Shown: positions 2,341 to 52,631 of the stretch, in pieces
How the letters are laid out: every line of letters starts with the position of its first letter
Position numbering within the stretch: the stretch's first letter is position 1
IMG/VR virus record: IMGVR_UViG_3300049893_000997
Location: 1 to 54,267 of that record
Origin: a virus
Strand: one strand, 5' to 3'
DNA: 54,267 nucleotides
Program-made: the position numbers and the translations under genes
Notes under the pieces: generated by a model
Database searches by the model: none
What the model was told of the DNA's origin: nothing
Seen by the model: only the letters and a program-made list of their open reading frames with translations

Positions 2341-3498
2341 ATGGGATGTTGTTCGGGAAAATGCAAGCAGACTTCATTTACTTTAAGAGAAGATGTTAGC
2401 GTATGTGATACTAGGAATACAGCGATTATAACCGGCGTAACCGGTCAGGATGGTTCCCATCTGGCAGACTTTCTTTTATCGAAAAACTATCGCGTAATTG
2501 GTCTAGTTAGAAGAGTCTCTACTGATAATACTCAACGAATCAAACATCTAATCGATCACCCTAATTTTGAACTATTTGAGGGAGACGTAACCGACTATTC
2601 TAGCGTAACCAAACTGCTTCTTAAACGCGGTCGTAGACCGGTAGAAATCTACAACCTCGCGGCACAATCTCATGTTGGCATTTCTTTTAAACAGCCCGGA
2701 TTAACATGGGATGTTACCGCTAAGGGAGCTTTAAATATTTTGCAGGCCATAGTGGATCTTAATCTAACCAATGTTGTGCGGTTCTATCAAGCAAGTAGTA
2801 GCGAAATGTTTGGTAAGCATTATGACGTTAAGGACGGCGTAAAATTTCAAAATGAAACAACAAGGTTTTTACCGCAAAGTCCGTATGCTATTGCCAAGTG
2901 TGCCGCACACGAAGCGGTAAGAATATACCGCGAAGCATATGGGATTCATGCTAGTGCGGGAATATTATTCAATCATGAAGGTCCGCGAAGGGGTGAGAAT
3001 TTTGTTACCCGAAAAATTACTAAATGGATTGGCGAATTTGTAAGATGGAAAAATGCAATAGATAGTCAACAACATGATTATACTTCTGATCCAAACTTTC
3101 TATTAAAACTATCACCGGTTTCTTTGGGCGGAAGTGGCAATATTACTGATAAATTTCCAAAGCTACGTCTGGGGAATCTTGAAGCATTTAGAGATTGGGG
3201 GTACGTAGGAGATTACGTGGAAGCCATGTGGATGATGTTACAGCAGGATAAGCCTGACGATTATGTTATCTGCACCGGTGAGACTCATACGATTCGGGAG
3301 TTCTTAGACGTAGCATTCAATCTAGTTGGCATAAATGATTGGTCACAATATGTAGTGCAAGACCCGCAATTTTATCGCCCTGCGGAAGTCGATTATCTTA
3401 TGGGTGATAATAGTAAGGCTAGGAATAAACTTGGATGGCAACCAAAAACCTCTTTTCAAGAGCTTGTAAAAATGATGGTAGATAATGATTTACAATGA
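2341..3498 (+). CDS. gmd: GDP-mannose 4,6-dehydratase
   Basis: This is an extended short-chain dehydrogenase that converts GDP-mannose to GDP-4-keto-6-deoxymannose, the precursor of GDP-fucose, GDP-rhamnose and GDP-perosamine. The Rossmann dinucleotide motif GVTGQDG lies at residues 32-38. The catalytic set is S153 and E155 in ASSSEMFG, plus Y182 and K186 in SPYAIAK. The family signatures FNHEGPRRGENFVTRKIT and RDWGYVGDYVEAMW are also present. At 385 residues it is slightly longer than usual because of a 25-residue N-terminal extension with four cysteines (C3, C4, C8, C22). No internal Met could replace the ATG at 2341, which has a GAGGG RBS. It sits among packaging genes and presumably supplies the glycosyltransferases encoded at 47-53 kb. 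Confidence 0.92.
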   Translation: MGCCSGKCKQTSFTLREDVSVCDTRNTAIITGVTGQDGSHLADFLLSKNYRVIGLVRRVSTDNTQRIKHLIDHPNFELFEGDVTDYSSVTKLLLKRGRRPVEIYNLAAQSHVGISFKQPGLTWDVTAKGALNILQAIVDLNLTNVVRFYQASSSEMFGKHYDVKDGVKFQNETTRFLPQSPYAIAKCAAHEAVRIYREAYGIHASAGILFNHEGPRRGENFVTRKITKWIGEFVRWKNAIDSQQHDYTSDPNFLLKLSPVSLGGSGNITDKFPKLRLGNLEAFRDWGYVGDYVEAMWMMLQQDKPDDYVICTGETHTIREFLDVAFNLVGINDWSQYVVQDPQFYRPAEVDYLMGDNSKARNKLGWQPKTSFQELVKMMVDNDLQ

Positions 3499-15125: not shown

Positions 15126-15524
15126 ATGGCTGATAATCCTGCATTTGCAGTATATCCAGAAATAGGAAATGGCTTTGTAAACGTGTTAAATAATAACCGC
15201 GATGGGGTGTCGGGTAGTGGCTATGTTGTTTTTGCTAGCGGTGTTCGTGCAGGAACAAGAATAGCCGAAATCGTAGTTCAAGCCACCGGAACAACAGTTG
15301 CTGGATTGGCTAGAGTATTTATATCTGGTGCGAATATAGTTGGTAATCCATTATTTGATGAAATTACTATTGCGGCAGCAACGGCTAGTGCTAGTGCAAA
15401 AGCTACTAGAATTAGTACCACTTACAACAATTTGGTTTTACAAAGTGGTCAGTTTTTAAACGCAACGAATAGTATCGGCCCGGCTCAAGGATTTAACATA
15501 ATTGCTTTAGGAGCGGATTTGTGA
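15126..15524 (+). CDS. Small β-rich structural protein
   Basis: This 132-residue protein is of unknown exact role. Its sequence is rich in Ala/Gly/Val/Ile with alternating hydrophobic residues (GTRIAEIVVQATGTTVAGLA, RVFISGANIVGNPLFDEITI), which suggests a β-sandwich. Small proteins of this kind recur beside phage fibre genes and may be a fibre-tip, adaptor or decoration subunit. ATG 15126 has an excellent AAGGAG RBS eight bases upstream. Its stop overlaps the GTG start of the next gene (GTGA), so the two are coupled. Confidence 0.6.
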   Translation: MADNPAFAVYPEIGNGFVNVLNNNRDGVSGSGYVVFASGVRAGTRIAEIVVQATGTTVAGLARVFISGANIVGNPLFDEITIAAATASASAKATRISTTYNNLVLQSGQFLNATNSIGPAQGFNIIALGADL

Positions 15525-16801
15525 ACCAGGGAATATTGGGAACAAAATCATTTGATATTGATATAGATAATAACACGAGTAAATGTTTATTGGGTGAACC
15601 ACAACCAATACCCATTCCCTTTCATTTACCTCCAAATCAGCTTTGGATGTTGGGAAATAGCGATGGAATAAGTAATAAAGATATTGTTATGGTGATAGAC
15701 ACCGTTGCTTATGGTAGTACAACTATTTCTATAGCGATTTCTGTTGGTGCTGGAGGATCATTTAGTATTGACTGGGGCGATGGATCTAGCGGAACAAGAT
15801 TAACTTCTTGGACAGGCACCCGCAGACCGGATAGTTTTGAAACGAGAATAGAAAGTACCGCAACCGGAACGGGCAATGCCGTTCATACTTATTCTAAGCA
15901 TGGGATTTATCTCATAGTTATTAAAGGAACATTTAGTTCTGCCGCGGTAACTGTGGCATATCCAGAAATTTTTCCAGGTTTAATAAGAGTGTTGAATATT
16001 GGTCAAACTCAACTGAGACATAATATTATTAGATTTCGTGATAATAGGCAGTTGGAATACGTTCCGCCCTTTTTGCCAACCGGGATTACTACTTTGGCGA
16101 ATTGTTTTCAAAATTGTGTAAATTTTAATCATCCCAATGTTACTTTATGGAATTTATCAAATATTACTTCTATGGTGGCGGCTTTTCAGAGTGCTAGCGG
16201 ATTCAATCAAGATATTAGTCCATGGGTATCATATAGCAGCGGCGTAACAACATTTGTAAACTTTTTGTTGAATGCCAAATCTTTCAAAAATGCTGATAAA
16301 GATCTTACTAATTGGGTTATCAGATCAGGAACGTCTTGTCAAGCTATGTTTTCAAATACAAGCATATCTAGTAATAGTTTTAGTGGATGGCAATTTTTGG
16401 GTAATAATAATCTTCAGCAAATGTTTGCTGGTTGTATTGACTTTACTGGTTTTGGTTTAAATACGTGGGATGTGAGTAAGGTTAGCGTTATGCAAAACAT
16501 ATTTGATGGATGCTCCGGATATTCTGGTAGCGGTATAGAAAATTGGAATTTGGCAGGATTGGGTTTCTCTACTTCCTTGAATACCTTTGCTAGGGGATGT
16601 ACTTTTCCAACCGGTCAATATGATCTTATACTTAATTCATGGAATGCGAACAAGAGTAGCGGAGTTAATGGAGTCGCAGACTGGAGAACAGATTTAACTC
16701 CAAACTTTGGTAGTAGCAAATATACGGCCGCGGGAAGCGGAGCCAGAGCATCATTAGTAAGTTATGGTTGGACCATAACAGATGGAGGTCTACAAACATG
16801 A
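15521..16801 (+). CDS. Adhesin-like protein with BspA-type repeats
   Basis: This 426-residue protein starts at GTG 15521 with TAGGAG seven bases upstream. Residues about 75-140 look like a PKD-type β-sandwich (FSIDWGDGSSGTRL, then HTYSKHGIYLIVIKG). Residues about 170-390 carry repeats of the BspA/DUF285 leucine-rich family: WNLSNITSMVAAFQSASGFN, then LTNWVIRSGTSCQAMFSNTS, then WDVSKVSVMQNIFDGCSGY. Such repeats mediate binding to surfaces in bacterial lipoproteins. In this fibre cluster a receptor-binding role is likely, though unproven. The C-terminus (YGWTITDGGLQT) resembles the end of many such surface proteins. Confidence 0.72.
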   Translation: MNQGILGTKSFDIDIDNNTSKCLLGEPQPIPIPFHLPPNQLWMLGNSDGISNKDIVMVIDTVAYGSTTISIAISVGAGGSFSIDWGDGSSGTRLTSWTGTRRPDSFETRIESTATGTGNAVHTYSKHGIYLIVIKGTFSSAAVTVAYPEIFPGLIRVLNIGQTQLRHNIIRFRDNRQLEYVPPFLPTGITTLANCFQNCVNFNHPNVTLWNLSNITSMVAAFQSASGFNQDISPWVSYSSGVTTFVNFLLNAKSFKNADKDLTNWVIRSGTSCQAMFSNTSISSNSFSGWQFLGNNNLQQMFAGCIDFTGFGLNTWDVSKVSVMQNIFDGCSGYSGSGIENWNLAGLGFSTSLNTFARGCTFPTGQYDLILNSWNANKSSGVNGVADWRTDLTPNFGSSKYTAAGSGARASLVSYGWTITDGGLQT

Positions 16802-20778: not shown

Positions 20779-21978
20779 ATGCCCAGGCCAAATAATACAA
20801 ATAGACGAGTTTTTTACGCTACACAAGCTGTTGCTGTGGGCGATATGGGTGCATCCGGGGTTCAAGATAGTTGGAAGCCATCCGTTGGAGGCTCAGATTT
20901 TACATCTCAGAATCTTGTAAACATTGCTCACGGTTTGCAATCCATTGGTGTTACCACAAATTTCAATCTAGAACAAATCTTTGAACTTGGACAACTTTCT
21001 CTATACGAGAACTATGAAGAAGTTCCAGAGATCGAAGTTACGTTTGAAAAAGTGCTTGACGGGTATTCGCTAATGTACCATTTAGGTACAGTTGATGCTA
21101 CTAGTCCAACATTAGTTGGTAGAAGCAACGCAAGGGCCGATATTCGCATGGCCGTTGGTTTTGATACAAATGATTATATGGCCGCGGGAGTAAATTCCGG
21201 AGTGGCTGAACTATACTGCTCCGGAATGTATATTAGTTCGGTTTCCTACACATTAGGAACAGATGGAAACTTTACAGAATCAACAACATTCGTTGGCAAC
21301 GAAAAGCAATGGATCACAACCGCGGATAGTGGCGGTCTATTAACAAGTGATGCCACAGGTGCATTAATTGCTGCACTTAGCACGGGCGTATTTGGTAGTG
21401 ATGCTCCTGTGGGCGTTGGTAACAGTGTGCTGCGTCGTCAGAATCTAGTAATTGGCAGCACTGGTAGAACTTATGGTAGTGGAACTTTCAGAACAGAAGT
21501 TCCAAATATTCTAGAAGGCGGAAGTGCTGGCTCACTCACAAATTCTAAGTACATTATTCCAGGTAGTGGTCCATTTATTCAGTCTGTGAGTATTAGCTGC
21601 GATCTTGGTCGTGAAAATATTCAGCAGCTTGGCAAGAAGGCTCCGTATTATCGATATGTTGCATTCCCTGTGGATGTTACATGCGATATCGAAGTAACTG
21701 CAACCGCTGGTGACAATGTTGACGCGGCCGAAGAAGGTGGTGCTACAGGTAAGAATCTGTCTAATCACTCTATTCAGATTGTTCTAGATGATAGCACAGT
21801 TTTCCAGCTTGGAAAGAAGAATAAACTAACTAGTGTCACATATGGTGGTGGTGATGCTGGTGGTGGTAATGCCACAATCACATATAGTTTCACCAATTCT
21901 AATGATTTAGTTGTTCTTCACTCTGGCGATCCAATGACATTAGCATCTGCTAGTTACTGGAAAGATTGGTTTGCATGA
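20779..21978 (+). CDS. Major tail tube protein
   Basis: This 399-residue protein lies between the neck block and the tail-assembly genes. Its β-rich sequence contains a long loop-forming middle and paired tube-fold strands: LYENYEEVPEIEVTFEKVLD, MYISSVSYTLGTDGNFTEST, FIQSVSISCDLGRENIQQLG, then SIQIVLDDSTVFQLGKKNKL with a final TITYSFTNSNDLVVLHSG. The 'G.v.sv..slg.dG.ftes.tfvG' part is common in tube proteins. At 399 residues it is longer than a minimal tube subunit, so an added surface domain is likely. No contractile sheath gene accompanies it. Codons are GC-richer than its neighbours, which fits abundant expression. ATG 20779 has GGAG nine bases upstream. Confidence 0.75.
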   Translation: MPRPNNTNRRVFYATQAVAVGDMGASGVQDSWKPSVGGSDFTSQNLVNIAHGLQSIGVTTNFNLEQIFELGQLSLYENYEEVPEIEVTFEKVLDGYSLMYHLGTVDATSPTLVGRSNARADIRMAVGFDTNDYMAAGVNSGVAELYCSGMYISSVSYTLGTDGNFTESTTFVGNEKQWITTADSGGLLTSDATGALIAALSTGVFGSDAPVGVGNSVLRRQNLVIGSTGRTYGSGTFRTEVPNILEGGSAGSLTNSKYIIPGSGPFIQSVSISCDLGRENIQQLGKKAPYYRYVAFPVDVTCDIEVTATAGDNVDAAEEGGATGKNLSNHSIQIVLDDSTVFQLGKKNKLTSVTYGGGDAGGGNATITYSFTNSNDLVVLHSGDPMTLASASYWKDWFA

Positions 21979-24225: not shown

Positions 24226-27200
24226 ATGGCTTATGATCTTTCTATGCAGATTAATTTGCAGAAACCATCACCCACCAATCTCACAGAAATTAGAAATTCT
24301 ATAGAGAAGGGACTAAAGGGCATTAATGTTGGTGCTGCAATAAGAAGTGCTACCGCCGGAAAACCAATAAAAATTCCGATTACGCCTACTGTATTTAAGA
24401 AAGACATTGATAGTATCAAGCAATCAATAGCTCTCGGTTTAGGGAAAACCCCCTTTTCCGTTGGCATAAAAGCTTCGAAGCAGGATGTAAAAACTATTAG
24501 AAGCTTTATTCAGAGTGGAATTGGCACAATACCAATAACTACAAAAATCTTCAAAAGCAATGTTACTGATATTCGTAAAACAATAATAGGTAAGATTGGT
24601 GTTGTGCCAATTACTATCAAGGTATTCAACTCCAATATTAAGCAGATTAGGCAACAAATTCAAGCTGGTTTGCAAAATATTACGGTTAGTGTTAACACTA
24701 CCGGTGCTGGAGGGGCTGGAGGCGGTAGCGGACGAGGAGGACGCGGCGGTGCTGGAGGTGCCGGAAGAGGTGGTGGCGGGGGTGGTATTGGCCGACAGGC
24801 CGCGGGCATATCACAGAGTTTAAGGGATGCTACGGATAGTGGTAATTCATTTTTTGATGCAATTACTGGCAAGGCACGTAGTTTTGCGGCATATGCTGTG
24901 GCTAGTACCGCTATTTTGAAACTTAGTGGGGCGGTTTCCAATGCAACAAACGAGGCGATTAAATATGAAAAGGAATTGATCAATATCGCACAAACTACCG
25001 GAGATTCTATAGAAAGAACCAAGTCTTTTTCTGATGCGTTAGTAGATATATCCACAAAGTACAATGTAAACCTGAGCCAAGTTGCAAAACTAACAAGAAC
25101 TCTAGCACAGGCGGGTCTTAGTTTTTCGGAAGCCTCAAAGGGTGCTGAGATTCTTGCTAGAACAAGTTTGCTCGCTGGCTTTGATAGTCTTACCAGCACA
25201 ACAGAAGGTTTAATTGCGGTAATGTCCACCTTCAATCTTACCGTGACTAGTGCGGGTAAGGTTCTTGAGTCGATCAACGCAGTATCCAAAGCATACGCGG
25301 TTGAGTCAACCGACCTTGTAGAGTCTATTAAGCGAACCGGTGGTGCATTTAGTGTTGCTGGCGGAACAGTAGAAGAACTTATTGCTTTAATTACCGCTGT
25401 ACGATCAACCACGCGAGAAAGTGCTGAAACTATTTCTACTGGTTTCAGAACAATCTTTGGTCGTTTGCAAAGACCCAAGACAATTGAATACTTTAAGAAG
25501 CTTGGTATCGAATTAGAGGACGCGGAAGGCAAGTTCATCGGACCATATCAATCAATTATTGCCATTAATAAGGGACTGGAACAGCTAGGAATTACTACTG
25601 GAACAGTAAAATTTGCAGAAGTTGTCGAACAAATTGGTGGTATTCGTCAAATTAGCAAGGTGGTTCCTCTATTAACACAGACTAAAAAAGCCCAAGAGGC
25701 TTTAAATGTAGCTAATAATGCTAGTGAGGAGAGCATTAAGGACTTGGAAAAGGCACAACAAGGTCTTGGATATAAACTTGGTACATTACAGAAAGAGTTT
25801 GCAGCATTGATTTCGGAAGTTGTAGACTCTAAAGGATTTAAGACTCTGGCCGATATCTTTATCGGTTTATCAAAATCTGTAATACAGTTCACAAGCACTC
25901 TTAAGCCACTAATGTCAGCATTAGCACCTATTATGGGTGCAGTTGCTGGTAGAGTATTAGGACAGAGTTTACAAGGCAAAGGATTTTCTGAAACTTATGG
26001 TAGTGGTAGAGCGGCGGCTCGACGTAGAAACAGAATTCAAGGCAGAATGAGTAATATTGGTGGATTGGGCGGTGCTGCTGGACCATATGCGACCTCACAG
26101 CAACAGGATGTAGCAAATTTTTATCAAAACCAACTTAATGCCATCCCCGCATCAAGAAGAGGTCGTCGCAGATACGCATCTGGTGGAACGGTTCCAGGAA
26201 GCGGTAGCGGAGATACTGTTCCGGCTATGTTAACTCCTGGCGAGTTTGTGATTAATAAGAAATCCGCACAAGCTATTGGTTATAGCAATCTTGCGAAAAT
26301 CAATAAATACGCCGATGGAGGTTTAGTCGAAGGAAAAACTACAAAAGAAGCATACTTATATCATGCATCGAATTCAGGCAAAGATAACCGAGTGATAGAA
26401 TCCTTATTAAAGGGAGGGGCAAGGTCCGATATTGCACATGGATATGGGCAAGGTTCTGGATTCTATTTATATACTAATGTACAAAAGGCATATGATCACG
26501 CTCTTGGACTATCAGACCCTACTGCACTGACGGGAGCAGAACAAGGGGGGAAACCGTTTGTCGCATGGTTTGTCGAAAAACTTACTCCAAAAAGGTGGAA
26601 TCTTGATTATGAGTATAATAGTCCATTAGTTACAAAATGGATTACAGATAATTATGATCAACTGAAACGGTATCTGGAGGGACAAAAAATTGATCATCCA
26701 GAATTTCCATCACAATTGCCAGCAATCACAGTCAAGGGAATTACGCAACAGAATAAAGGAATTTCTCTTGAGGTTGCTGATAAATCTGGAAGAACACAAC
26801 TAGATGAAGTTTTATCGAATCAATCGGGCAATGTAAAAACTGGACGATATTTAGGTCAAATTATCAGTCATTTAAGAAATAATGATCCGAATATAGTTTA
26901 TAATTTTGAAGGATGGGCTCTTGAGAATGTTGCAGAGAAAAAATTCAAAAGTGATATCAAAGGAATTAAATATGTTGGTAAAGAACCATTAAAGCCGTTT
27001 TCAATTCAAACATATGATGAAGCAAATGACTTTTGGAGGACAGTAAAAAATGATGATTGGAGTCTATCAAAATTTGCTAAAGGAGGTGCTGTTGGTACAG
27101 ACACTGTGCCCGCTATGTTAACTCCCGGCGAGTACGTTATCAATAAAAAATCCGCACAAGCTTTTGGATATGGAAATCTTGAAAAGGTGAATAGGTATGC

Positions 27201-30200
27201 TAAGGGAGGGATTGTATCCGGGGTACAAAAATTTGCCGAAGGAGGTTCTGTTAAACGGTCTTGGATGGAATTTTTTGGATTCACAAAATCAAAGAACCCC
27301 ATGCAAGATGATCTAAGCCAAGGCGGTGGAGAATTAATACATACATTTGATGATCTTAAAAAGGCTGTAGAGTCTGTAACAGCAGATATGGGTGATGCAG
27401 GAAAAGAAATTCTTAAGCAAATAAAACTAAGTGTGCGGCCAGCTATTATTAATGGACGTTTATTTGCGGGTGCTTTTAGACCTAGTACTGGAAAAATAGA
27501 TGCAACCCCCGGAAGGGCTGATCAGGTTGTAGCCGCTCATGAAGTTGGACACGCCTCGGATTATCTTATGGGAGGAAGTAGACCTGGGACAGAAAGATTT
27601 CCTCTTGTTGGAAGAGTAGGAGCAGAAAGATATGCTAGTGGACAACAGGGAACTCTACAAAACAAACTAGCAAAAGCTGCTCAACAAAGAATGTATATAG
27701 AATTAAAGGCTAGGGGTGCATCAGAAAAAGAAATACAACATAGATTAAATCTACAAGAAGTTTATGCTGATTTATTCTCAAAAAGTAAGCCCGCCGTTCG
27801 TGCAATCTTGGCTAGTACAACAAACGCACGCGAAGGAATGAAGCAGTTAGCCGATTTATTGGAAAATGAACCAGAACAATACAATAGACTGTTTATGGGA
27901 ATAGAGAATGATATTCCCTCGCTACGCAAAGCTCGTAAAAGAGGTTTGCAGGCACTTCAAGACGCGGCTATTGGAGCAGAGATAGAAAAAGAGAAGCAAC
28001 TAGAGGCCGCTAAACAGGCCGCAGCCGCTGCGGAAGAAGCAAAAAGGCAAGCGGCTATTTCCGAGAAGGCAGAAAAGGATAGGCAGCGAGCTTTAGAAAT
28101 TGAGAGAAAGAATAATGTTAAGCGATTAAGATCAGAAGGAACAATCACAGGCAAGCGGGCTAAAGAGGGTTTGCAAACAGAAGAGTCAAAAGCCATTGGC
28201 GGTCAAATCAGAGAAGAAAGTCAAAGGATACAAACTTTATCAAAGACTAAATCGGATGCTCAAAGTAGAGTGGAACAGTTGCCCAAAACGCTAGAAAGTC
28301 TAAAAGCGAGCGTTCAAACCGGCGTTTTAAGTCAACAAAGATACAATCAAATTGCTAAACAAACTCAAGCACAGATTAGAAAAGAACAAGAATTAATCAC
28401 TAAGATTGATCAACAAATCACAGAATCTGAAAAAAATAGAGCCGAATTACGTAATCAGTATAAAGCATCACAGCAGAAGTCTAGAGGTTTATTATATTCA
28501 GCCTCAAATGCACCCCCAAATCTTCCTAAAGGTGGTGGCCCTGGCGGTCCCGGCGGTCCCGATGATCCGGGTGGCGGACCTGTAGGCTCTTTCTTAACAA
28601 CAATTGGCAATATAGATAAACAGATGCGGAAGCTAAACATCACTTTTATTGAAATGGCGGTATATGCACAAACATTTGCTTCTACATTTGGTTCAGCAAT
28701 ATCTCAATTTTTTGAAGGTGACTTCAAACAAGAAGTATTATCCGCAGCCACAGCAAGGGGTGGTGTTTTATCAGCTACTGGAGAAGCGGCCGAAGCGGCA
28801 CTTTCAAGAAAGAATGCGTTTTTAACTGGTAAAGCCCTGGGTAAACTTCCGGGCGGGCTTGGTAGATTTGGTCAGGCTATATCAAATAATGCTGGCCGCA
28901 TAGCCGCCGCCGGTAAAGCTTTTGGTAGAGCTTTTGATATCTTCGCTAAAGTAGAGTTGGTTGGTGGATTATTTGATGCGATTCTTAGTGTTAACTATGC
29001 TGCTCAACGCGACAAGTTTATTCAATTAGGTGACGCAAGCAAAGCGGCGGAAGCGGCCACAAGGGCATATGCTCAAGAACAACTAAGAGCTATTCCTATT
29101 CTTGGTGGATTTATATCGGGCCTAGGTGGAGGTATGAACGCCACCGAAGAAAATCTAGATTCTCTTGGAAGATTGGTTGTGGGAAATGCTAGATTAGCAG
29201 CGTCTGTGATCAATAGCCAAAAAGAATTTACTCGACTATCTAATGCTTTGGACGAAGCTCGTTCTTCGAACGATGGGGGTGCCGCGAAGGAGATTATTGG
29301 TAATCAATTAAAATCAATTGAAAATCTAGACGCTCAAGCTTTCGATCTATTCCGTCAGGCTCAAATGGGTGCTAAGACTAATAAGAATGCTCCGGGATAC
29401 ACCGGTGCGGGTATGGGTATTGGTGGCACATTAGGATCCATAGCGGGCGGTGTTGCTGGTAGTTTTGTAGGAGGACCGGCAGGAGCAGCAGGGGGTGCTG
29501 CATTAGGAGGAAAGATTGGAACAGCGGTCGGGGGATTTGTCGGCCTTGGTGTTGGAGCGTATATGGACTCTCAAGAAAATAAGGCAAAAATAGCAGAAAG
29601 CTATCAAGTTCAAATTGATGCTATCAAGCAAAGTTCGCAAAATCAAATCAATATGATTAAAGATGTATCCGCTTCCTTAAAGAGCGAGTCAGCAAGAATT
29701 ATAGATGCGGGCGGTTCATATGAGGACGCATTAAAGAATATTGCGGATAGAGTTGGCGGTAAGGATATCTTGACAAAGATTATGGCAGGAGAAGAATTGA
29801 CGGGTGATATACAAAAAGATCTTGAGGCGTTAAGAGCCCAACGCGATGCTGGTCAAAAAAGGATTGACACGCTCAAAGCAGAAAAAGCCACTATAAAAGA
29901 TTCGGATAAAGTGGCTGTTATGGCAAAAGAACGAGAAATTCAATTGGCTCAGGTACGTTTAGATGCAGTTGATACTATTGAAACGGAACTACAGACTATT
30001 CAGTACAATAATATTCAGCAAGAAAGATTGCTAGAAAGAAGAAAAGTAGAGTCTGCGGCTATTAAAGAACAGATAAGAATCATGAAACAATTAGAAACCG
30101 CTTATGATGGCTTTAATGCTACCATGAGGGATATTAACGATACCGTTGAACAAATGGGTAATGTTGGAACCGGAAGATTATCCACGAGAAGGGCCGCATC

Positions 30201-31950
30201 CAGAGTGGGCATAGATGATTCTAGAATGTTTGAGATGAGTCCACAAGAAATAATGAGAACTCCAGAAGTTGCTACCGCAATGGCAACATATGCGACAGCG
30301 GCTGGTGCTCCCGGAGGAGAAATTAATCGTGCGTTGATTAGTGTAGACCAACTAAATAGATTGAATAAATTTGCTGAAACAAAAGAGTTTCAGCAATTAA
30401 GACAGAGTGCTGTTGAAGGAGAAAATAGACCATCTGCACAAGAACTTGAAAAAGATATTATGGACTTATTTGGTTTCGATGAGAGTAATCCTATCATAAA
30501 AAATGCTATTAGAACATATGCTGAAAGATTACTTTCTAATTCTGATGATGTTGCTGGTGCTGGACAAGCGGCCAAGGAGGAAGCCGAGAAACAGGCTATT
30601 GAGATTATCTCTAGACAGCAAGAAAAGTTTAAGGAGTTGATTCAAACGGAGCAAAAGTACCGCGAGGGTCAAATTGAATTAATTAACCGCAGAGCGGAAG
30701 ATGCTAAGAGGGTGTACGAGGCCGAGAAAGAATATTTCGATGAGAGGCTATCACTTAATACTAAGGTAAGAGAAGCTTTACAAATTGAGCCTGCTGGTCC
30801 GGGACGATCCTCATTCTTACAAACGCAGGCCGCAAGCAACAGAGCGGCCAGAATGGGCAATCTATCTGCCAATAGGGGCAGATTGGGGATAAGGAATGTT
30901 GATGAATCTATCAATAACGTATCTAGACTAATGGAATTTGGCAAAAGGGCCGCGGAACAGCAAGCGGCAGAAAAGGGGGAGCCGACCGGCATTAGTGATA
31001 TAATGCCGGGACTCAAAAATGACTTAGAAATTCTACAACAAACTATTAGAGATGAAATAGATATCCAAAATCAATATCTTGATGGTCTTATTGATAGTGC
31101 CAAAGCACAACAAGAATATACTCAGGCTTTGTATGATGCTCAGGGGGCTATAGTAAGAGATTTAGTTACTGGCACAGACGAAGACGTTGCTAAACAACTA
31201 AGAGGTTTGAATGCAGCAGCAATTGCTTCTATGCAGGGCAGTTTTGCTGGAGTGCCAGAAGATTTGAAACAAGAAGTATTTAGTATATTTGATCAATTTG
31301 CAGATATCGAGATTCCTGGACTTGGTAAGACTGGCAGACAAGCACAAAGAGAGATAACTAAAAATGAAATGATGAAGCGATTTGGTGTTGATGCTGCCAC
31401 AGCGGAGCAGTTAGCAAGCAAGGCCGTTCAAGACCGCGTACCAATAGATCAACGCATGGCCGATCAGATTGAAAATCAAAGAAAGATTGTTGAAGGATTA
31501 ATTACTAAAGAACACGACATGAAACAAAAACAAATTGAAATGGAAATATCTAATACTACTATATTTGGACAGCACGTAGATAGGCTGGGTATACGAGTTG
31601 ATCAATTAATTAATGAACTGGGAATGAGTCGTCAAAATTTCACAAATCCTCCACAACAAATTCCAGATAATGTTCGACCTATGAATAATATGGCCCAAAA
31701 TGTACCCGCCGCATCAAATCAACCTATTCAACTTGTTACTAATGGACAGCAAGAATTTACTTTAAGATTACCAGATATGCAGATGGCTGTAAATCAAGCT
31801 ATTACTAGCACAATCTATGATGCTATATCTACTAAATTCAAAAATCTGGCCGATGGTATAAGGACCGCAAATAATTTTGAAGATGCAGCGAATATTATAC
31901 AAACCGCCGCATCCCAAACGGAAACTCTTAATATAGGAGGACAGGTATAA
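24226..31950 (+). CDS. Tape measure protein with embedded enzyme-like domains
   Basis: This 2574-residue protein sets tail length and leads the DNA during ejection. Residues about 1-155 contain repeated short β/α units. A Gly/Arg-rich linker follows at about 160-195. Residues 200-600 are the conserved tape-measure core (ISTKYNVNLSQVAKLTRTLA, TVEELIALITAVRSTTRESA, TISTGFRTIFGRLQRPKTIE). A 39-residue motif (DTVPAMLTPGEFVINKKSAQ...) occurs at 663-701 and again at 959-997. Between the copies lies an ADP-ribosyltransferase-like segment, and an HExxH metallopeptidase-like segment follows at about 1025-1225. Then come long coiled coils, a glycine-zipper hydrophobic stretch at about 1726-1785 that could insert into a membrane, and a helical C-terminus. 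Size and place, after the chaperone-like genes and before the distal tail genes, confirm the role. Confidence 0.93.
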   Translation: MAYDLSMQINLQKPSPTNLTEIRNSIEKGLKGINVGAAIRSATAGKPIKIPITPTVFKKDIDSIKQSIALGLGKTPFSVGIKASKQDVKTIRSFIQSGIGTIPITTKIFKSNVTDIRKTIIGKIGVVPITIKVFNSNIKQIRQQIQAGLQNITVSVNTTGAGGAGGGSGRGGRGGAGGAGRGGGGGGIGRQAAGISQSLRDATDSGNSFFDAITGKARSFAAYAVASTAILKLSGAVSNATNEAIKYEKELINIAQTTGDSIERTKSFSDALVDISTKYNVNLSQVAKLTRTLAQAGLSFSEASKGAEILARTSLLAGFDSLTSTTEGLIAVMSTFNLTVTSAGKVLESINAVSKAYAVESTDLVESIKRTGGAFSVAGGTVEELIALITAVRSTTRESAETISTGFRTIFGRLQRPKTIEYFKKLGIELEDAEGKFIGPYQSIIAINKGLEQLGITTGTVKFAEVVEQIGGIRQISKVVPLLTQTKKAQEALNVANNASEESIKDLEKAQQGLGYKLGTLQKEFAALISEVVDSKGFKTLADIFIGLSKSVIQFTSTLKPLMSALAPIMGAVAGRVLGQSLQGKGFSETYGSGRAAARRRNRIQGRMSNIGGLGGAAGPYATSQQQDVANFYQNQLNAIPASRRGRRRYASGGTVPGSGSGDTVPAMLTPGEFVINKKSAQAIGYSNLAKINKYADGGLVEGKTTKEAYLYHASNSGKDNRVIESLLKGGARSDIAHGYGQGSGFYLYTNVQKAYDHALGLSDPTALTGAEQGGKPFVAWFVEKLTPKRWNLDYEYNSPLVTKWITDNYDQLKRYLEGQKIDHPEFPSQLPAITVKGITQQNKGISLEVADKSGRTQLDEVLSNQSGNVKTGRYLGQIISHLRNNDPNIVYNFEGWALENVAEKKFKSDIKGIKYVGKEPLKPFSIQTYDEANDFWRTVKNDDWSLSKFAKGGAVGTDTVPAMLTPGEYVINKKSAQAFGYGNLEKVNRYAKGGIVSGVQKFAEGGSVKRSWMEFFGFTKSKNPMQDDLSQGGGELIHTFDDLKKAVESVTADMGDAGKEILKQIKLSVRPAIINGRLFAGAFRPSTGKIDATPGRADQVVAAHEVGHASDYLMGGSRPGTERFPLVGRVGAERYASGQQGTLQNKLAKAAQQRMYIELKARGASEKEIQHRLNLQEVYADLFSKSKPAVRAILASTTNAREGMKQLADLLENEPEQYNRLFMGIENDIPSLRKARKRGLQALQDAAIGAEIEKEKQLEAAKQAAAAAEEAKRQAAISEKAEKDRQRALEIERKNNVKRLRSEGTITGKRAKEGLQTEESKAIGGQIREESQRIQTLSKTKSDAQSRVEQLPKTLESLKASVQTGVLSQQRYNQIAKQTQAQIRKEQELITKIDQQITESEKNRAELRNQYKASQQKSRGLLYSASNAPPNLPKGGGPGGPGGPDDPGGGPVGSFLTTIGNIDKQMRKLNITFIEMAVYAQTFASTFGSAISQFFEGDFKQEVLSAATARGGVLSATGEAAEAALSRKNAFLTGKALGKLPGGLGRFGQAISNNAGRIAAAGKAFGRAFDIFAKVELVGGLFDAILSVNYAAQRDKFIQLGDASKAAEAATRAYAQEQLRAIPILGGFISGLGGGMNATEENLDSLGRLVVGNARLAASVINSQKEFTRLSNALDEARSSNDGGAAKEIIGNQLKSIENLDAQAFDLFRQAQMGAKTNKNAPGYTGAGMGIGGTLGSIAGGVAGSFVGGPAGAAGGAALGGKIGTAVGGFVGLGVGAYMDSQENKAKIAESYQVQIDAIKQSSQNQINMIKDVSASLKSESARIIDAGGSYEDALKNIADRVGGKDILTKIMAGEELTGDIQKDLEALRAQRDAGQKRIDTLKAEKATIKDSDKVAVMAKEREIQLAQVRLDAVDTIETELQTIQYNNIQQERLLERRKVESAAIKEQIRIMKQLETAYDGFNATMRDINDTVEQMGNVGTGRLSTRRAASRVGIDDSRMFEMSPQEIMRTPEVATAMATYATAAGAPGGEINRALISVDQLNRLNKFAETKEFQQLRQSAVEGENRPSAQELEKDIMDLFGFDESNPIIKNAIRTYAERLLSNSDDVAGAGQAAKEEAEKQAIEIISRQQEKFKELIQTEQKYREGQIELINRRAEDAKRVYEAEKEYFDERLSLNTKVREALQIEPAGPGRSSFLQTQAASNRAARMGNLSANRGRLGIRNVDESINNVSRLMEFGKRAAEQQAAEKGEPTGISDIMPGLKNDLEILQQTIRDEIDIQNQYLDGLIDSAKAQQEYTQALYDAQGAIVRDLVTGTDEDVAKQLRGLNAAAIASMQGSFAGVPEDLKQEVFSIFDQFADIEIPGLGKTGRQAQREITKNEMMKRFGVDAATAEQLASKAVQDRVPIDQRMADQIENQRKIVEGLITKEHDMKQKQIEMEISNTTIFGQHVDRLGIRVDQLINELGMSRQNFTNPPQQIPDNVRPMNNMAQNVPAASNQPIQLVTNGQQEFTLRLPDMQMAVNQAITSTIYDAISTKFKNLADGIRTANNFEDAANIIQTAASQTETLNIGGQV
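26212..26328 (+). repeat. In-frame direct repeat flanking a tape-measure cassette (copy 1)
   Basis: This encodes residues 663-701, the 'DTVPAMLTPGEFVINKK' motif common in tape measures. Copy 2 begins 888 bases downstream. The two 39-residue segments are identical at 31 positions by my alignment and also similar at the DNA level, so they could recombine. Confidence 0.75.
26338..27060 (+). other. ADP-ribosyltransferase-like segment inside the tape measure
   Basis: Residues 705-945 of the tape measure. The opening YLYHASNSG, with H713, and then GQGSGFYLYTNVQKAYDHAL, with Y747, resemble the histidine and 'G.GFY.t....A..yA' motifs of H-Y-[E/x] ADP-ribosyltransferase folds, including small phage and bacterial families of the DUF3990 type. 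The third catalytic position is not clear. By eye, 17 of 22 glycine codons are GGA or GGG and 3 are GGT, whereas the flanking core at 24841-25640 uses GGT for 12 of 23. That shift suggests separate acquisition. Enzyme activity is inferred, not shown. Confidence 0.5.
27100..27216 (+). repeat. In-frame direct repeat flanking a tape-measure cassette (copy 2)
   Basis: This encodes residues 959-997, the second copy of the 39-residue motif (DTVPAMLTPGEYVINKKSAQ...). Together with copy 1 it brackets the ADP-ribosyltransferase-like segment. Confidence 0.75.
27301..27890 (+). other. Zinc metallopeptidase-like segment inside the tape measure
   Basis: About residues 1026-1222. H1105-E1106-x-x-H1109 in VVAAHEVGHASDYL is a zincin active site. 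E1178 in NLQEVYADLFSK, about 70 residues later, has the spacing and 'ExxAD' context of the third ligand in gluzincin-like peptidases. Glycine codons here are mostly GGA, unlike the core of the gene. The substrate is unknown; cell-wall peptides, a host envelope protein or the tape measure itself are possible. Confidence 0.65.
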
Positions 31951-50279: not shown

Positions 50280-50991
50280 CTATGTCCTTCCAGGTTAGCA
50301 CTTGTGAATCCGAATTTTCTTTGTTTGCTATATCACAAAGCTTTTCGCCAAACGAACATTGCAAGTCACCTTTGAGCCATTTATAGATATGAATCATACT
50401 AACAGATTCATGAAAGCCCTCTGTTGGCAATACATGTAATAATCTATTTAGTTGTTTGTTTACGAAAAAATCGATTTTATCTACGATCTTCTCATCAAAA
50501 GCCTTGTTCGTATCAAGTATAAAAAGATACCCATTTTTTGCATAGGTTAAAGCTTTGTAGACATGAAAAGCGATGTCATGATCTAACCATTTGATTAATT
50601 TATACCCTCCATGGATATTATTTCCGCAAACATCCAACATATCACTAGCTTTAATATCCTTATAGATTACTATGAGCTTAAAGTTACTAATCTCAGTATT
50701 TGCGTTCAGTTTTTTAATAGCTTGTAATAAGTTGCTGGAATCATTCGCTATTAGTATAATAGTGCCAGAGATATAGATCTCGTTTCTACATATAGACATT
50801 TTTTCTTCTATAGGCAACTCTTGATTCCAATCGGAGGATCTAAAGTATGGACATATTCTATTGATAATAGGAGATCCATCATGCATAACAATATCCGCAC
50901 CGTGTTTCTCAAATTTCTCCAATAGATTATGAGAACATGTTGCATTTTGATAGAAGCAACAAAATTTACATGCCGTTTTTAAGCCAACCAT
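50260..50991 (-). CDS. Cysteine-motif protein with GT-A-like domain
   Basis: This 243-residue protein begins with a cysteine cluster (C8, C11, C12, C19 and C47 in TACKFCCFYQNATCSHN and NRICPYFRSSDW) that may bind a metal. The rest is α/β: ISGTIILIANDSSNLLQAIK, then NFKLIVIYKDIKASDMLD, then GYLFILDTNKAFDEKIVDKI. The last resembles the D-x-D region of GT-A glycosyltransferases (LDTN). The N-terminal cysteine module is shared by several phage proteins near glycosyltransferases. The start overlaps the preceding gene by 13 bases. A role in sugar transfer is likely but not proven. Confidence 0.52.
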   Translation of the reverse strand: MVGLKTACKFCCFYQNATCSHNLLEKFEKHGADIVMHDGSPIINRICPYFRSSDWNQELPIEEKMSICRNEIYISGTIILIANDSSNLLQAIKKLNANTEISNFKLIVIYKDIKASDMLDVCGNNIHGGYKLIKWLDHDIAFHVYKALTYAKNGYLFILDTNKAFDEKIVDKIDFFVNKQLNRLLHVLPTEGFHESVSMIHIYKWLKGDLQCSFGEKLCDIANKENSDSQVLTWKDIDENYSN

Positions 50992-52631
50992 TTAGCACCA
51001 TGATCTGTAAGTTTTGAACGATTAAGTCTAACCTCTTCCCAAATATTATAGTTCTGCAATCTTTGCTCAAAAGTTTTGATTACCCCTTCCCGATTTATTG
51101 CTTTTGGTCTATTATTACCAAGAGGAGAAAATTCGCTTACATAGAATCCATCCCATGAAGCTTTTGTTACTCCTCGTTGTAAATCGGTCTGAATAGCTCT
51201 GGAGAAGTGTGAGTTTTTGTGAGGTTGATAATAACAATATGCGTCCATTAATTCATTCATGAATTGGCTATGAGATGGATTGTCCATATTAACCTTTTGC
51301 GGTGGAATTAACTTCATTGGTTGTTTCCAATCAGCATATTCACAGTCATCTATCGCCTTCATCCATTCTTGAGTTGTAGAATCCCAATTATAATTTTCTT
51401 CAAATAGCTTTCGCGTTTCCTCTCTTCTTTTTTGACGATAATCGCTATCGTTATCGATAAAGAAGTGCTTTAGGATTTTGGTTAGGGAATGGTGATCCGG
51501 AACGGCCCGATTACATCCGGTTTCTAATTCCTTGTAGTAAGAATAGTCGATTGGATATGCACCAAGTTTATTCACAACGTCTTCCATTGCGGAATAGTTT
51601 GTGCATACAATGGGAGTCCCACATGCTGCGGCCTCTACTTGAGGTAGTCCGAATCCTTCTGAATTTGCACACTGAACATATAGATCAAAAAGATTGTATA
51701 TCTTGGCTAACTGTTCATCGGGAACACCATTGCCAACATTGGATGGACTTGAGGCATATTGTCTACATGACGAGCAAACTTTCTTAATGTCCCTGAATGG
51801 TGATGCTTCTATATTTTTACAATTTTCACACACATATGTCATTAGCACTCTAGACGATAGACCATTTGAATGAATTAATTCGGCTAAATTCCAGCCAGCG
51901 TCTGGAAAACTGGTGTGTAAGTATAGATATGTATTTGTTGAATTAGTAGATCGGATATATTCTGCAAATGATTCGATTAAGGCTGGAAACAGTTTACGTC
52001 TTTGGTTTCTCATAACTGTTCCAACAATATTTACATCTAGCGGAAGATTAAATTGTTGACGAAGTGCTAGTCGATCCATCGGGTAAAAGCATTCTGAGGC
52101 GGATGGTGAAGCCACTCCGATAGTATTAATTCTACTACCTCCCTCATTCTCCAATACATTTTTGGCCCAGTCCGAATATGTTAGTACATAATCAGCGTCT
52201 GAAAAAATGTCCAGCCATTCCTGATTTTGTGGACTAGCGTCAACGGTTGGCATCCACGCCCAAGAGAAAATACGCCTGTATGGGGAATGGTAAATGAAGG
52301 AGTCCATCCAAAAATCTCTGATAGTGAGAATAATATCCGGCTCAAAATCTAAACAGACTCGTTCGAATCTCCATGCACCGAATTGGTTAACGGGATTTGA
52401 ATTGTAAATATTTTGTAATTGCTCATCATTATTAGGAGGCATATTGCAGTAGTTTTTCCACGGAATGGAGGATCTACGCGGATCATCTTCATTCCCATAA
52501 ATCGAGAACTCCGCTATCTCATATTTATTTGTGGCGTAAAGTCTAGAGATGACCTCTTTGCTATATTTTGCATATCCAGTATTCAAATACGCCGCTTCGG
52601 ATATGAACAGAACTCGTTTCTTTTTATGCAT
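50979..52631 (-). CDS. Glycosyltransferase family 4 with inserted zinc ribbon
   Basis: This 550-residue GT-B enzyme begins RVLFISEAAYLNTGYAKYSK with the GT4 acceptor-domain start. The C-terminal donor-binding domain has LFDLYVQCANSEGFGLPQVE, then AAACGTPIVCTNYSAMEDVV; the two glutamates form the E-x7-E motif of family 4. A short insert in the middle carries CENC and CSSC (encoded near 51818-51832 and 51759-51778), a probable zinc ribbon. The last 120 residues are an extra helical domain. It transfers a sugar from a nucleotide donor; acceptor unknown. Overlaps with both neighbours place it in the operon. Confidence 0.85.
   Translation of the reverse strand: MHKKKRVLFISEAAYLNTGYAKYSKEVISRLYATNKYEIAEFSIYGNEDDPRRSSIPWKNYCNMPPNNDEQLQNIYNSNPVNQFGAWRFERVCLDFEPDIILTIRDFWMDSFIYHSPYRRIFSWAWMPTVDASPQNQEWLDIFSDADYVLTYSDWAKNVLENEGGSRINTIGVASPSASECFYPMDRLALRQQFNLPLDVNIVGTVMRNQRRKLFPALIESFAEYIRSTNSTNTYLYLHTSFPDAGWNLAELIHSNGLSSRVLMTYVCENCKNIEASPFRDIKKVCSSCRQYASSPSNVGNGVPDEQLAKIYNLFDLYVQCANSEGFGLPQVEAAACGTPIVCTNYSAMEDVVNKLGAYPIDYSYYKELETGCNRAVPDHHSLTKILKHFFIDNDSDYRQKRREETRKLFEENYNWDSTTQEWMKAIDDCEYADWKQPMKLIPPQKVNMDNPSHSQFMNELMDAYCYYQPHKNSHFSRAIQTDLQRGVTKASWDGFYVSEFSPLGNNRPKAINREGVIKTFEQRLQNYNIWEEVRLNRSKLTDHGAKWLA

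Follow-up and report, generated by a model that had tools for sequence, protein, structure and literature searches.

Tape measure proteins (TMPs) are usually viewed as rulers that also help the DNA through the envelope. They are believed to form the DNA conduit (PMC7824862), and some of them contain glycine zippers similar to the one that aids membrane crossing of a type VI secretion system (T6SS) effector (PMC10240207). The polyvalent proteins of phages, which are believed to be co-injected with the DNA, combine zincin, ADP-ribosyltransferase (ART) and GNAT domains, and for their zincins either self-processing or action on host proteins has been proposed (Iyer et al. 2017, PMC5512222). Here, we describe a candidate zincin inside the TMP of an uncultured phage represented by the virus record IMGVR_UViG_3300049893_000997, whose entire 54,267 bases are termed the window. 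Judged from conservation and a predicted fold, residues 1023-1244 of this TMP are probably an active gluzincin-type zinc metallopeptidase, and we assign a probability of roughly 0.6 to the reading that the active peptidase forms part of the TMP's cargo and would serve as an effector inside the cell after ejection. The cargo findings more generally suggest that TMPs can double as enzyme carriers into the infected cell.

A predicted gluzincin domain in the tape measure protein

The features that define the domain are as follows.

24226-31950, plus strand: tape measure protein of 2574 amino acids (PhageMin_Tail, E 6.5e-26; PHROG tail length tape measure, E 1e-31)
27292-27957, plus strand: gluzincin-like metallopeptidase domain, residues 1023-1244 (11-member family, AlphaFold2 model, zincin neighbours)
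27538-27552, plus strand: HEVGH, residues 1105-1109, with predicted zinc ligands H1105 and H1109 and predicted general base E1106 (invariant in the family)
27559-27561, plus strand: D1112, three residues past HEVGH (invariant in the family)
27757-27759, plus strand: E1178 in QEVYAD, predicted third zinc ligand (invariant in the family)

A first-pass annotation had placed a gluzincin-like domain at 27301-27890 (residues 1026-1222), with HEVGH at residues 1105-1109 and E1178 within QEVYADLF. Both motifs lie at these positions on the open reading frame (ORF) at 24226-31950, and the location of the domain stands, with boundaries better drawn at about residues 1035-1245, a little past the annotated interval. 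HEVGH is the sole HExxH among the window's frames of at least 120 codons, and any HExxH arises in only 0.26% of shuffles of this histidine-poor protein (11 His). Related TMPs carry an alignable domain in which HETGH or HEVGH is followed downstream by ELFAEF or QEVYAD. A profile of five HETGH members, from which the window and a relative termed L003 were left out, matches the window domain at E 7.7e-16 (computed with Z set to 97,000), and after a further scan the family comprises 11 non-redundant members, the relatives being 22-31% identical to the window domain. H1105, E1106, H1109, D1112 and E1178 are invariant in 11/11 members and belong to 15 invariant columns in an alignment in which most columns vary.

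Structure prediction, which had been proposed at first pass as a check, yielded a confident zincin-like AlphaFold2 model from seven sequences (predicted local distance difference test, pLDDT, 86.2; predicted template modelling score, pTM, 0.85), composed of a small sheet, an N-terminal helix, the HExxH helix and the Glu helix. H1105 and H1109 share one helix (model residues 78-93), and E1178 (model residue 156) sits on a later helix (154-164); with the invariant motif, this arrangement bears out a gluzincin-like domain as far as sequence and model can. The proposed comparison with known peptidases pointed to protein-cleaving zincins, the VIA-align neighbours including the anthrax lethal factor protease domain (Z 7.6) and the Pro-Pro endopeptidases (PPEPs; Z 6.4) over spans of about 120-140 residues. 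Foldseek neighbours were MATCAP, Certhrax, lethal factor, M32 peptidases and IrrE, all with E above 0.07, and those among viral models were phage MuF, polyvalent, internal core, IrrE-like and SprT-like proteins, with probabilities of up to 0.99.

At the sequence level, the domain has no Pfam or NCBIfam match above cut-off, the sub-threshold matches being confined to M90, SprT-like, Aminopep and YpfJ, and single-sequence searches with it (Pfam, PHROGs, PDB sequences, INPHARED phages, viral contigs) gave weak matches or none. A profile search of PDB sequences returned no lethal factor or PPEP match. PDB sequence matches to BamB, TRPM8, designed repeats and snapalysin were weak and judged to be due to chance, and an early alignment to a Leptospira LE1 zincin was dropped because the C-terminal Glu was misaligned. 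When bacterial genomes were scanned for the zincin, a single match was obtained, probably a viral contig inside a metagenome-assembled genome (MAG) bin. A Leptospira phage LE1-type protein encoded near a baseplate gene (L002, 4495-6549) carries a related zincin-like domain, matched by the profile at E 4e-9 over the HExxH half.

Linker repeats and exchangeable cargo

The zincin lies in a region of the TMP bounded by repeats, which is laid out as follows.

25039-25587, plus strand: PhageMin_Tail (PF10145) core, residues 272-454 (E 6.5e-26)
26173-26325, plus strand: first DTVPAMLTPGEFVI-type linker repeat, residues 650-700, opening the cargo region (profile match)
26332-27060, plus strand: ART-like domain, residues 703-945 (7-member family with invariant His and Tyr; ART neighbours, weak model)
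27070-27216, plus strand: second DTVPAMLTPGEFVI-type linker repeat, residues 949-997, separating the ART-like and zincin domains (profile match)
29410-29565, plus strand: glycine-rich GxxxG stretch, residues 1729-1780, a possible membrane-inserting segment (function by analogy, PMC10240207)

Relatives were reached through a 399-residue tail-module protein (20779-21975), with which two related contigs and subsequently 80 were found; among INPHARED phages, the tail-module protein of this lineage has no match. A linker motif search contributed 120 stretches. The resulting set of 89 TMPs is biased, since some were collected by searches based on the motif, the ART or the zincin, and frequencies are accordingly taken from the subset gathered by the tail protein; comparison of C-terminal regions was restricted to 45 complete ORFs, many loci being cut. 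The zincin family is present in 5 of the 34 TMPs collected via the neighbouring tail-module protein alone, and among relatives it is internal in the TMP, at positions that vary from about residue 640 to 2090. The contig of L301, which encodes a TMP of the window's kind, was binned with a Chitinophagia MAG and is probably viral.

The DTVPAMLTPGEFVI linker profile detects at least two copies in 88/91 TMPs, where they flank a hypervariable region; the pair in the window resemble each other in nucleotide sequence. The first and second copies are separated by 3 to 2268 residues (median 439). In L141 (13507-19347), two tandem copies stand 3 residues apart, an arrangement suggestive of an empty cassette. 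The zincin starts 22-70 residues past a copy in each of the nine TMPs with both a full-length zincin match and linker copies. Where complete TMPs have cores of at least 60% identity (165 pairs), 99 pairs have a C-terminal region in common and only 57 have cargo in common. None of the six linker-bearing TMPs whose cores are closest to that of the window (53-67% identical) has cargo between the first and second linker motifs in common with it, whereas L158, at 45% core identity, does share this cargo. L003 (56% core identity) holds a zincin about 30% identical to that of the window and in the same place, with no ART and no linker detected in its TMP, which is cut at the contig end. On these sequence comparisons, cargo is exchanged between relatives in the variable TMP region.

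The first-pass annotation had also recognized an ART-like domain beside the zincin. Residues 703-945 belong to a seven-member family found within TMPs, whose predicted NAD-site residues H24 and Y60 (A8 numbering) lie in ART-like contexts and are invariant in 7/7 members, and the fold neighbours of its model are nearly all ADP-ribosyltransferases (Tpt1, PltA, PARPs). The assignment is nevertheless less secure than that of the zincin: Pfam matches to DUF3990 are sub-threshold, and the family has several invariant acidic residues among which a third catalytic acid is not assignable on a model of pLDDT 54. The order of ART-like domain, linker copy and zincin is shared by the window, L148/L165 and L158, which represent two other TMP lineages. 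A pairing of zincin and ART, noted at first pass as one not seen before, has already been described for phage polyvalent proteins in a paper that leaves tape measures unmentioned (PMC5512222).

Other cargo types are suggested by conserved-residue patterns. HExxH occurs 24 times in the 89 related TMPs, for which shuffling predicts 0.35 occurrences. In 74 TMPs there is an E..D..K pattern of the type seen in PD-(D/E)XK nucleases, and a GNAT-like domain occurs in 11 (L232, L152, L097 and eight others). In L230/L232 the GNAT-like domain comes directly after the ART-like one, an arrangement that polyvalent proteins are also described as having, and in L152 it lies upstream of the zincin. An SNase match (E 0.0045) was obtained in 1 of 19 scanned TMPs. 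As further observations, HExxH domains of other families are present in L085, L229, L256, L268, L254, L269, L300, L255 and L201, with the motifs HELTH, HESFH, HELSH, HELGH and HEFAH, and a TMP on the minus strand of L028 has five linker copies and two different zincin-like motifs (HEMAH..NELFA and HEYGH..QEVFA). Elsewhere in the window, 15521-16801 encodes a DUF285 (BspA-like repeat) protein (E 7.1e-23), and a nucleotide-sugar epimerase (2341-3498) and a group 1 glycosyltransferase (50979-52631) are possible sugar modification genes.

Proposed effector delivery and its alternatives

If the zincin is an effector, the TMP would exit the tail before the DNA does and bring at least its cargo into the cell, where the peptidase would most likely attack a host protein and the ART-like domain would be a second effector. 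We favor delivery by the TMP because polyvalent proteins are thought to be injected, TMPs are believed to act as DNA conduits, and the GxxxG-rich stretch of the window TMP follows its ART-linker-zincin cassette. A wider proposal, which we advance tentatively and at somewhat short of even odds, is that in this widespread lineage of uncultured phages the TMPs serve as polymorphic effector carriers, in which a conserved frame holds exchangeable, linker-bounded enzyme cassettes delivered ahead of the genome, the zincin being either an effector or a peptidase that releases cassettes.

Several points weigh against delivery of an effector peptidase. The structural matches score in the middle range (Z below 8; Foldseek E above 0.006), so that the fold class is supported and closer kinship is not claimed. 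The nuclease-like and GNAT-like cargo labels are conserved-residue patterns for which Pfam gave no support, and they are kept as motif-based for that reason. Finally, the fixed place of the zincin just after a linker copy could signify a role in processing.

The last point leads to the principal rival, namely that the substrate of the zincin is the TMP in which it resides, cut for example close to the linkers so that the ART-like domain or other cargo is freed at maturation or after ejection. The fixed position, at the boundary between the cargo and the remaining TMP, keeps this explanation in contention. Iyer et al. propose processing for polyvalent zincins, citing P1 DdrB (PMC5512222), and the TMP of T5 is cleaved beside its own peptidase motif (PMC10038345). 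However, nearly all TMPs have at least two linker copies and cargo, and yet only five of the 34 sampled through the tail-module protein possess the zincin, a sporadic presence more in keeping with an effector than with an enzyme for general processing. Additionally, the zincin of L003 occurs without the ART-like domain and without detected linkers. On balance, we regard self-processing as unlikely, though it is the strongest of the alternatives to an effector.

Still less likely is a cell-wall peptidase, which would cut peptidoglycan peptides and so help the tail through the wall, a task performed by enzymatic TMP domains in other phages. A metallopeptidase motif in the T5 TMP, pb2, does have muralytic activity (PMC10038345), and no other wall hydrolase was recognized in ten large window proteins scanned, four of them encoded downstream of the TMP. 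In the family described here, however, the position of the zincin is internal and varying and not fixed near one end, and the companion domains would need NAD+, DNA or acetyl-CoA, which implies cytoplasmic substrates; both features make a muralytic role improbable, and the structural neighbours are protein-cleaving zincins. Among the targets suggested at first pass (peptidoglycan, a host envelope protein or the TMP itself), peptidoglycan is thus the least favored on grounds of position, neighbours and companion domains. Retention of the zincin fold as an inactive structural or binding module is very improbable, given that all predicted ligands and the general base are invariant across 11 diverged members in which most columns vary.

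Relation to described systems

Should the middle of the TMP hold exchangeable cassettes, each virion would bring a set number of effector copies before gene expression, and arrival at that stage would suit early takeover or counter-defence. The proposal also gives a concrete test for how much of the tape measure reaches the cytoplasm. In addition, the work brings to light a zincin family missed by Pfam and NCBIfam, and the linker repeat can be used for finding further cargo. Searches of the open literature, covering tape measure in combination with zincin, ADP-ribosyltransferase, polyvalent, nuclease cargo and GNAT, brought up no description of such TMPs in the accessible texts, subscription papers and preprints lying outside their scope.

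The metallopeptidases (MPTases) of polyvalent proteins, which include those of the N4 virion RNAP and P1 DdrB (Iyer et al. 2017, PMC5512222), resemble the window domain in having HExxH and a later-helix Glu within a small zincin fold, and a widespread phage clade of them shares the Asp three residues past HExxH (D1112 in the window). The conserved His that ends strand 2 in that clade is absent among the invariant or near-invariant columns of our family. In both cases the zincin is joined to an ART (window, L148, L158) or GNAT-like (L152) domain, and the polyvalent MPTases reside in large virion-associated or injected proteins. Unlike them, the domain described here is carried by a tape measure protein, a term that does not occur in that paper, and the window zincin matches no Pfam model above cut-off. 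The M34 folds, the anthrax lethal factor protease domain and the Pro-Pro endopeptidases, are the best structural neighbours at Z 6-7.6, a range under the level that would exclude a merely common arrangement, and the M34 peptidases have no significant sequence match to the window zincin.

T5 pb2 likewise bears a peptidase motif inside a tape measure protein; its motif follows the cleavage site R1127 and is muralytic (PMC10038345), whereas the window domain is internal and mobile among relatives and has an ART-like neighbour. As in polymorphic toxin systems, a conserved carrier is combined with exchangeable enzymatic modules; the toxins, however, place these modules at the C terminus, whereas here the carrier is a phage TMP and the modules lie internally between repeats. 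The domain types are therefore known ones, and it is the zincin family and its carriage by a tape measure protein that appear to be new.
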